A program made the position numbers and the translations under genes. From Candidatus Angelobacter sp. Gp1-AA117 (GTDB lineage: Bacteria; Acidobacteriota; Terriglobia; Terriglobales; Acidobacteriaceae): DNA of 53,062 bases. The stretch lies in contig QHVI01000035.1 of the NCBI GenBank assembly GCA_003223515.1, forward strand, positions 1 to 53,062, in the 5' to 3' direction. The notes beneath the pieces were generated by a model. The model saw only the letters and a program-made list of their open reading frames with translations, was not told the origin of the DNA and did no database searches. Below are positions 19,550 to 37,343 of this stretch, piece by piece; within the stretch, counting starts at the first letter, position 1, and the number at the start of each line of letters is the position of its first letter.

Positions 19550-19671
19550 CCAGGGGCGTGCTCGCCACGCCTCATGAATTTCCGGCGCTTGGGGTTTCGG
19601 ATCTGCCTAATGCCGCCAGCACCGCAAATACATTGGGCGACATGCTGCAATAGCATTTCAGGGGAAGAATA

Positions 19672-19757
19672 GCGCCGGAGGCGCGAAACAAGTTAGCCCA
19701 GCGTGAGCGCTGGGTTCAACCAAAAATGAAAGATATAAAGATAGATGAGCCCCAGAG
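19672..19757. repeat. Three-hairpin palindromic repeat element
   Basis: Three GC-rich palindromes follow one another: GCGCC-GGA-GGCGC (19672-19684), CCCAGCG..GCGCTGGG (about 19695-19712) and GCCCC-AGA-GGGGC (about 19748-19760). The spacing, with an AT-rich middle, is like REP/BIME-type extragenic elements. None is followed by a T-run. Confidence 0.6.
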
Positions 19758-34846: not shown

Positions 34847-35896
34847 TTACATAACCTGTATCACCGGTTTGTCAGCAGGAATGACTTCCCCGATTTCTAC
34901 AGCACCTACACCTCCAGCCTTGAGCGCCATCAGCAAGGGATTCGCATCATCGCGTGCTACCGAGAGCAACAGGCCACCCGCGGTCTGCGGGTCGTAGAGA
35001 AGAGTTTTGATTTCCTCGGGAATTCCATCAGCGTAGCCGACCATGCATTCGGCAAATTCGCGGTTGGCTTTGAGACCGCCGGGAATAAAGCCGGCGCGCA
35101 CGCATTCGTAAGCTCCTTCGAGCAGTGGAACGTTACCGGAATTGATGCGAATGCCCACGCCGCTGCCCAGTGCCATCTCGCGGGCATGACCAATCAGGCC
35201 GAATCCTGTGATGTCCGTGGCGGCATGGACTTTGAATCTGCGGGTGCTCACCACTTCTGCCGCCATAGAGTTCAGCGTAGTCATGGCCCTGGTCGCTGCC
35301 TCAATCCACGCGGTTTCCGCCAGGCCTTTCTTGATTGCGGTCGAGATTACCCCGGTTCCCAGAGGCTTAGTAAGAATCAGTGCGTCGAGCAACTGTGCGT
35401 TGGAATTGGTGAGCACGTGCTGCGGATGAATCATTCCGGTCACGGCATAGCCAAACTTGATCTCAGGATCGCGCACGCTGTGACCGCCAATGACCGTGCA
35501 GTGCGCCTCCATCATCTTGGAGAGCCCGCCTGCGAGTATCTGCTCCAGAACTTCCAAGTCGCCTTTCTCCGGGAAGCAGAGCACGGCCAGCGCGCTGAGC
35601 GGACGCCCGCCCATGGCATAAACATCGCTCAGTGAATTGGTGGCTGCAATCTGGCCGAAGGTATAGGGATCATCGACCACGGGCGTGAAGAAATCCACGG
35701 TTTGTACCAGGGCCTGCTCGGCAGAAATCTTGTACACTCCGGCGTCGTCGGACTTATCAAAGCCGACCAGGACATTAGGATCATGCTGCCGGGCTAATTT
35801 CCCAAGCACCGTGTCCAGCACCGCCGGACTCAGCTTGCTCGCTCAACCCGCCGCTTTCACATGCTCCGTAAGCCGGATTGTTTTGGTCTCTGCCAT
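34847..35896 (-). CDS. selD: Selenide, water dikinase SelD, itself a UGA-encoded selenoprotein
   Basis: A 349-residue enzyme that makes selenophosphate from selenide and ATP for selenoprotein and selenouridine synthesis. Reading from the ATG at 35896 gives MAETKTIRLTEHVKAAG, then an in-frame TGA (35845-35843, codon 18), then ASKLSPAVLDTVLGKL. This aligns with the catalytic start of other SelD proteins (IRLT......GCxxKLSP), with the UGA exactly at the active-site Cys/Sec and the essential Lys at residue 21. The remaining fold is normal: FDKSDDAGVY, VDFFTPVVDDPYTFGQIAAT, IGGHSVRDPEIKFGYAVTG and LLYDPQTAGGLLLSVARDD. A stem-loop follows the UGA. Naive gene callers would start at a GTG (35821) and lose the active site. 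A TAGAAT box stands 6 bases before the ATG, with no Shine-Dalgarno site. Confidence 0.92.
35804..35845 (-). promoter_or_regulatory. Candidate bacterial SECIS element of selD
   Basis: Downstream of the UGA codon (35845-35843), on the minus strand, AAGC (35836-35833) pairs with GCTT (35807-35804), and GTCC (35829-35826) with GGAC (35816-35813). This leaves a 9-base apical loop GGCGGTGCT with leading Gs, about 17 bases after the UGA. The layout fits the SelB-binding hairpins of bacterial selenoprotein genes. Folding was done by eye. Confidence 0.55.
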
Positions 35897-36086: not shown

Positions 36087-37343
36087 ATGGATGCTGCTCA
36101 GGCTCCTAAAAAAGCACCGATGCTCGAAAGAGCACCAATGCTCGCGGATTTTGCTGGAATCCAAGATAAAGACGAAAGGGGAAGAATGCAGGTTGAGTTA
36201 TATAAGCTGCGCGCCGAGGAATACCGAGACCGTTATCAAGATGCCCGTAGCGTCGAATGGAATACATTATTCCAGGTATATGCTGCCTATGCTGGTTTGG
36301 CGATTGCCTTCAAATATGTATTTGAGCAAGAGGGCAAAACACATCCTAAACTTATTTGCTTACTGGCAATTGCCGCAACCACAGTCTTTTATGCTGTGAG
36401 CCGCTATTTGAATTACCGCGTGCAGGAACGTCTCCTCATATTCGACACAACTCGCGAGAATTATGTGCATCAACTTGATGCTGCCTTTCATATTCCGGAG
36501 GCCAATCCGGGAAGAAAAGTCTTAGGAGATCGATACTTCTGGACCTTTCGCACACACTTAATTCTGAGTACATTTACTTTCACCATTCTATTAGGATACG
36601 AAATCAGCAAAGCTCTAATCACCAATCCCTTTCCCCTATTGATTTGCCTTTTTCTGATCGGATGTGCATTGCTCGAAATCGGATTGATTTGCGTTCCAAA
36701 GCTGCCGGTTAATAGGATCTGGTATGCCAGCTATGGCTCGAATCTGAGCTACCAAAAGCGTTTTATGTGTTACATCGCAGGTGGCAGGCCCGAGGGTTCA
36801 CAGAAGATTAATCCGGGATGCAGAGACAAAACGCCGCCGATTGATAATAAAGCAATCCCCGTTCCCTTCGAATTGTATTTTGCCGAATATTCAGACTTGT
36901 GGGGCGGCGGGGTGGCATTCGTCAAGCGCAGTCGTAAGAGTGCAAATACGCTAGGCCGGATGTATCTCATCACAGAAGATCAATTCAATGATGTTGTGTT
37001 GCAAGAGAATTCACGCCTTGTGAATGGCCAACGCGTTTTGCCGCCACTGGAACAGATGGTAGAGCAATCCGAATTTTTGTTACCTGACATCAAGATGTAT
37101 GGACGGCTACTTAGTCTCGGGAATCAGGATGGCTATCCGATTTTTACTTTCACCAACTCAAGCGATGATCTTGAGACTCGCGCGCCCAGCGAAGCTTACG
37201 TAAAGATTATCATCAGGGGGATCAAGGAAAGTTATCCCACGATGACGACTGGGGAAATCGGTAAATACCTGCTGGATCTGGACGGCATTCAGAACCAGAT
37301 TTCATCAGAAGAAATTAAGCGCTGGATAGAAGAGGTGCGCTGA
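36087..37343 (+). CDS. Four-span membrane protein fused to a GGCT-like (YGSN) domain
   Basis: A 418-residue protein of two parts. The N-terminal half has a helical lead (ELYKLRAEEYRDRYQDARSV) and four hydrophobic spans at about residues 60-78, 88-106, 155-172 and 181-203. The C-terminal half begins IWYASYGSNLSYQKRFMCYI, whose YGSN (216-219) is the substrate loop of the gamma-glutamylcyclotransferase/AIG2 fold. It continues GGRPEGSQKINPGCRDKTPP and ELYFAEYSDLWGGGVAFVKR, which I recall as a recurring bacterial hypothetical family. The ATG has GGAGG four bases upstream. Base usage is visibly more AT-rich than in flanking genes, hinting at transfer. Enzyme activity is not established. It converges on rplI with a shared hairpin terminator. 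Confidence 0.7.
   Translation: MDAAQAPKKAPMLERAPMLADFAGIQDKDERGRMQVELYKLRAEEYRDRYQDARSVEWNTLFQVYAAYAGLAIAFKYVFEQEGKTHPKLICLLAIAATTVFYAVSRYLNYRVQERLLIFDTTRENYVHQLDAAFHIPEANPGRKVLGDRYFWTFRTHLILSTFTFTILLGYEISKALITNPFPLLICLFLIGCALLEIGLICVPKLPVNRIWYASYGSNLSYQKRFMCYIAGGRPEGSQKINPGCRDKTPPIDNKAIPVPFELYFAEYSDLWGGGVAFVKRSRKSANTLGRMYLITEDQFNDVVLQENSRLVNGQRVLPPLEQMVEQSEFLLPDIKMYGRLLSLGNQDGYPIFTFTNSSDDLETRAPSEAYVKIIIRGIKESYPTMTTGEIGKYLLDLDGIQNQISSEEIKRWIEEVR

Follow-up and report, generated by a model that had tools for sequence, protein, structure and literature searches.

The window, i.e., the whole analyzed stretch of 53,062 nucleotides from Candidatus Angelobacter sp. Gp1-AA117, carries on its minus strand (35896 to 34847) a complete gene for selenide, water dikinase (SelD; Table 1). 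The frame starts with the ATG at 35896, passes through MAETKTIRLTEHVKAAG, an in-frame TGA and ASKLSPAVLDTVLGKL, and then remains open up to the TAA at 34849-34847; it comprises 349 residues if the TGA is counted as residue 18. As an in-frame TAG (35908-35906) is located four codons 5' of this ATG, with no ATG, GTG or TTG in between, ATG 35896 represents the sole start upstream of the TGA. These observations agree with the original prediction, which had the frame run from ATG 35896 through the TGA into a full SelD and had cautioned that an automatic call from the GTG at 35821 would lose the active site and misplace the start; the standard-code ORF list indeed starts at this GTG (ORF 34847..35821, 324 aa) and loses residues 1 to 25. 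Standard annotation of selD can lose the active site, and gene finders can miss such an arrangement.

When the TGA was translated as a residue, the protein matched the NCBIfam SelD model TIGR00476 (curated cut-off, 125 bits), and its best relative among solved structures was 3u0o, a chain which we take to be the Cys-containing SelD of E. coli. In the alignment to 3u0o, the TGA falls on Cys17 and Lys21 falls on Lys20, and the in-frame UGA is thus found at the predicted catalytic position; Cys or Sec at position 17 and Lys at position 20 (E. coli numbering) are presumably the catalytic residues of SelD. The second residue past the Sec is Ser in the window protein and Cys in 3u0o. No sel genes were found among the scanned neighbors of selD in the window. 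A 418-aa ORF divergent from selD (36087-37343, plus strand) had no Pfam match at E 0.001, and the Acido-Lenti-1 RNA family was matched at 19671-19714 on the minus strand, with 44.3 bits against a gathering score of 37.

Table 1. Features of the selD locus (positions refer to the window)
Feature	Position	Strand	Evidence
selD coding sequence, UGA predicted as Sec at residue 18, TAA included	34847..35896	-	TIGR00476, 378.2 bits; 3u0o, E 1e-76
In-frame UGA, codon 18, probable selenocysteine, aligned with Cys17 of 3u0o	35843..35845	-	TGA in 103/110 loci
GTG taken as start by the standard-code ORF list	35819..35821	-	Would drop residues 1-25
Predicted SECIS hairpin; apical stem 35829-35823 / 35819-35813, loop GGU 35822-35820	35803..35841	-	Fold; 420/420 cells paired
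5' arm of proposed lower stem, CGGGUUGA, with UGA	35843..35850	-	81-nt fold; 61/206 loci; 474/480 cells paired
3' arm of proposed lower stem, UUAGCCCG	35790..35797	-	Synonymous identity 0.97-1.0 for codons 34-36 (59 genes)

Codon 18 was compared among 110 fetched homologous selD loci, i.e., the best 30 of the matches in a family sample (including the gene in the window) and the best 80 of the matches in named records; near copies are present among these loci, which contain 83 distinct 60-nt stretches. TGA was found in 103 loci and a Cys codon in 7, and the residues preceding the TGA are conserved (RLT...KAAG in near loci). The named-record matches were mostly from Acidobacteriota (Terriglobia, Terriglobales, Acidobacteriaceae), and the lower-ranked ones included Deltaproteobacteria, Syntrophales, Clostridia, Chloroflexota and others. 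The presence of TGA in so many loci excludes a sequencing error at codon 18 (35843-35845), an objection that had been raised along with the original prediction.

The original prediction had also supposed that the organism has SelA, SelB and tRNA-Sec, and a search of its genome (G000; 6.48 Mb, 206 contigs) found all three over the curated cut-offs, i.e., selB on contig C196 (399.7 bits; cut-off 242.25), selA on C157 (547.3 bits; cut-off 267.9) and, on C158, a gene for tRNA-Sec that has the UCA anticodon and scored 71.9 bits (gathering score, 47). A second tRNA-Sec(UCA) is located on another contig (C190:14815-14909, or L011 1497-1595; 57.9 bits); it has diverged from the first at many places, including, as judged by eye, one exchanged anticodon-stem pair, while the acceptor end of both is CGCTTCCGCCA. 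Pairing in the variable arm and T stem of the C190 gene appeared poorer by eye, and this gene directly precedes a lipoprotein-like ORF; G072 also has a second tRNA-Sec. A SelB-like fragment (C78:2-355; 103.8 bits), which adjoins genes for tRNA-Gly/Tyr/Thr, was taken as a probable EF-Tu and set aside.

Single in-frame TGA codons were also found in two formate dehydrogenase alpha frames of this genome (NQARIUH on C173 and NQARVUH on C60, where the frame ends with the fetched stretch) and at CEYULASH in an AhpD-like frame. A hairpin is predicted past each of these TGA codons, with raw fold energies of -17.5 kcal/mol (C173) and -18.0 kcal/mol (C60) over 48 nt in the formate dehydrogenase frames and of -21.2 kcal/mol over 51 nt in the AhpD-like frame. 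As two families were searched, these three further UGA candidates represent a lower bound. SelU, which was sought as a second user of selenophosphate, had no match in the genome and was rejected; this agrees with PMC1794560, in the available part of which the selenouridine trait is absent from sequenced Acidobacteria.

The presence of a second tRNA with UCA anticodon could also be taken to indicate that UGA is read as Trp or Cys, either because the genetic code is altered or by means of an opal suppressor tRNA, particularly as Cys tRNAs with an opal anticodon and the shape of tRNA-Sec have been described (e.g., in Desulfobacterales; PMC7609411, in excerpt). However, the C190 tRNA itself scores as a tRNA-Sec and shares its acceptor end with the first, SelA and SelB are encoded in the genome, and TGA occurs at known Sec/Cys sites in SelD, the formate dehydrogenases and the AhpD-like frame, as Sec decoding predicts; we consider decoding as Trp or Cys very improbable.

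Downstream of the UGA, the selD transcript is predicted to fold into a hairpin (-20.8 kcal/mol) whose apical stem comprises 7 bp and whose GGU loop is located 20 nt after the UGA. A hairpin with a G-rich loop at the right distance had been anticipated, and the folding bears this out: the distance falls within the range of 16-37 nt given for SECIS loops in the available part of PMC10778597, and the loop contains a G, a conserved G in the SECIS loop being mentioned in a figure legend of PMC1794560 (seen in excerpt). Among 60 UGA genes from the window's group, the apical stem was completely paired (420/420 cells); among 13 UGA genes from elsewhere, 85/91 cells were paired and both bases of one pair had been exchanged (GC to AT in 12 genes).

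Four overlapping stretches were folded and compared with 200 dinucleotide shuffles each, of which 3, 12, 31 and 3 folded equally well; in the stretch with 31, a different fold wins because this stretch cuts the hairpin. When the 48 nt past codon 18 were shuffled among synonymous codons, the mean z was -2.16 for 54 distinct UGA stretches of loci L018-L102 (one of which, L101, is a Binatia record) and +0.36 for 7 Cys stretches (from four near and three distant relatives). The Cys relative L084 reached a z of -2.3 (2/200 shuffles as low) through a different hairpin, and many distant Sec-type SelD genes among L103-L127 showed no excess folding over synonymous shuffles. For the gene in the window, 5/200 synonymous shuffles were as low. 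Under a stricter shuffle (own codon usage, 78 nt) the mean z was -1.34 for 60 UGA genes, 24/300 shuffles were as low for the gene in the window, and only 5 of the 60 UGA genes had 1/100 or fewer shuffles as low. The hairpin energy is thus only moderately better than that of synonymous shuffles and alone is no proof of a SECIS. As fold energy is weak under the strictest shuffle, we rejected it as sole proof, and the argument for a SECIS rests on synonymous conservation, which represents stronger evidence than fold energy.

Among 59 UGA genes, the synonymous identity of codons 23 to 36 ranged from 0.87 to 1.0, with codon 29 at 0.74 (frozen codons: AGT CCG GCG GYG CTG GAC NCG GTG CTT GGG AAA TTA GCC CGG), and the GCG and GGT directly before the UGA had synonymous identities of 0.81 and 1.0, respectively. 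In these genes, each of the twelve best 8-codon stretches begins at one of codons 20-31, and their excess of synonymous identity is 0.53-0.62, as compared to a median of 0.06 (sd 0.13) for 8-codon stretches. A weaker peak lies beyond the SECIS (starts at codons 48-49, excess 0.35-0.36; codons 48-56, about 35755-35729 in the window). Taking codons 16, 17 and 21-37 as the element and counting same-residue codons equal to the consensus, we found 1077/1159 consensus codons in the element as compared to 8121/13929 in codons 61-340 for 66 UGA genes, and 51/113 as compared to 848/1547 for 8 Cys genes. The least conserved UGA genes (L086-L097), which belong to another clade, matched the consensus in 0.38-0.54 of codons; this clade has the element with other letters.

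A true stop at codon 18, i.e., a sequencing error or a dead gene in which the working protein, if any, is made from GTG 35821 without the active-site segment, would account for the standard-code ORF that starts there but not for TGA at the same codon of 103 loci behind conserved residues, nor for a synonymous freeze that flanks the TGA on both sides. The internal start would also remove residues 1-25, and we regard a true stop as very improbable.

The frame, the position of the UGA, the machinery genes, the conservation of the UGA, and the synonymous constraint together with its loss in most Cys relatives are directly established. Building on these observations, the in-frame TGA of selD very probably encodes selenocysteine at the active site, and the gene product is almost certainly a selenocysteine-containing selenophosphate synthetase, with Sec inserted at codon 18 by means of SelB and the hairpin. 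Sec insertion and SelB binding, which we infer from the machinery genes and the RNA element, would involve binding of SelB-GTP with Sec-tRNA-Sec to the hairpin 3' of the UGA, delivery of Sec at codon 18 and continued reading by the ribosome into the full SelD. SelD forms selenophosphate from selenide and ATP, and Sec18 and Lys21 would constitute the active site for this reaction; SelA would then use the selenophosphate for the synthesis of Sec-tRNA-Sec, which would serve SelD itself as well as the two formate dehydrogenase frames and the AhpD-like frame.

The 5' arm CGGGUUGA (35850-35843), which includes the UGA, can pair with UUAGCCCG (35797-35790) to form a lower stem of 8 bp, and 61 of the 206 loci that were fetched contain exactly this pattern. 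This stem was paired in 474/480 cells across the 60 UGA genes that represent the window's group, as compared to fractions of 0.64 and 0.49 when the pairing was slid by one; in 8 Cys genes, 30/64 cells were paired. Outside this group, 13 UGA genes had 48/104 paired cells; other acidobacterial clades do without the stem. No covariation was found in the lower stem among the 60 UGA genes, in which the pairs hardly vary, and the freeze is accounted for just as well by a requirement for these particular nucleotides. We consider it rather unlikely that selD in the window's group is recoded through a composite element of approx. 62 nt with an almost invariant sequence, whose lower stem extends 5' of the UGA and sequesters this codon. 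If such a stem does form, ribosomes could be delayed by it, or release factor could be kept off the UGA before SelB binds; SelD output could thereby be coupled to the selenium supply, because the synthesis of Sec for SelD itself depends on SelD. According to the partial description available in PMC4513850, the SECIS of fdhF is likewise a stem-loop directly 3' of the UGA, the lower part of which has to open on the ribosome; as compared to that description, the proposed lower stem differs in extending 5' of the UGA and in including this codon among its paired bases.

As compared to the Cys-containing SelD proteins (3u0o and those of genomes G176, G022, G024 and G028), the window protein belongs to the same family and has the same active-site position, which is encoded by a Cys codon there and by UGA here. 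The RNA element was lost in 7 of the 8 Cys genes examined, in which 33/94 element codons are consensus codons. The remaining one, L183 (the SelD gene of G176, whose protein is 68% identical to the window protein), keeps 18/19 element codons and an intact apical hairpin along with a TGT codon. L183 shares 87% identity with L067, a relative that has UGA, and G176 keeps SelA and a tRNA-Sec(UCA); this gene appears to represent a recent UGA-to-UGU (Sec-to-Cys) switch with a fossil hairpin. While recoding of sense codons to Sec has been described (PMC10778597, in excerpt), a reading of UGU as Sec in G176 was rejected, as the one tRNA-Sec examined has a UCA anticodon, which makes plain Cys the likelier reading.

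A quick tree, in which 37 of the 79 inner branches were open, required at least five Sec/Cys changes, two of them forced by starred branches. As most Cys rows fell inside Sec-type groups, loss of Sec is the simpler direction, which is also the direction favored in the available part of PMC1794560, where SECIS-like remnants behind Cys codons are reported. With several UGA/Cys switches in one group and a synonymous freeze that tracks the Sec codon, these relatives represent a natural experiment.

Among 200 sampled genomes of the family (including the window's own), 137 had a match at E 0.001, a number that includes weak and possibly non-SelD matches. An in-frame TGA within the SelD match was found in 92 of the 200 (by hand tally, with its position at codon 18 confirmed in the fetched loci only), and Sec-type SelD is thus common in the family. 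SelA was over the cut-off in 90 of these 92 genomes, the other two being G120 (100% complete) and G185 (83%). SelA was also present in all 15 tabulated genomes with a near-full-length non-TGA match; these 15 were hand-picked, with the residue checked in G176, G028, G022, G024 and G065 (coordinates match L080), and partial or divergent matches (e.g., G009, G019, G073, G076, G084) were left out. Four further fetched non-TGA selD genes, beyond the 110 loci, all encode Cys, and the non-TGA family matches outside the fetched set include one with TAA (G048:C113).

The selD gene described here resembles other bacterial genes for Sec-containing SelD in family, Sec position, a hairpin just downstream, and the presence of selA, selB and selC in the genome, and it comes from the same phylum as Sec users in Acidobacteriota, for which Sec decoding is already known. 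The available part of PMC1794560 (2006) lists Acidobacteria with 3 selenoprotein families and 4 selenoproteins, and that of PMC12013277 (2025) lists 3 selenoprotein genes for Occallatibacter riparius, which is assigned to Acidobacteriota there. Previous publications already cover SelD of the Sec type, the use of Sec by Acidobacteria, and fossil SECIS elements; the Sec-type selD reported here is well supported yet ordinary for a known class, and the frozen element that spans the UGA is a modest new detail. Among open-licence PMC papers, none on an acidobacterial selD element was found by title or start of abstract, and nothing was found on Terriglobales together with selenocysteine.

Twelve further places in the relatives scored high as tRNA-Sec. 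Six of them are tRNAs of 84-85 nt with a UAU anticodon (L161-L165 and L167, from G157, G196, G063, G011, G041 and G198), and the other six comprise one tRNA-Sec (G072), one Tyr, one Leu and two Ser tRNAs and one place that gave no tRNA call. The six with a UAU anticodon were rejected as further tRNA-Sec genes; they fit the acidobacterial allo-tRNA(UAU) described in PMC7609411 (in excerpt).

In some twenty genomes of the family, the SelD match was split into pieces near residues 1-220 and 217-348; in the cases inspected, the pieces were mostly in the same frame length and <200 nt apart, and the splits were read as small inserts. Nine genomes (G040 at C3:711964-714636, G070, G072, G129, G141, G142, G169, G186 and G191) have tRNA-Sec, a non-TGA selD and selA side by side in a compact cassette, and a TGA-containing selD adjoins selA in G046, G132 and G152.
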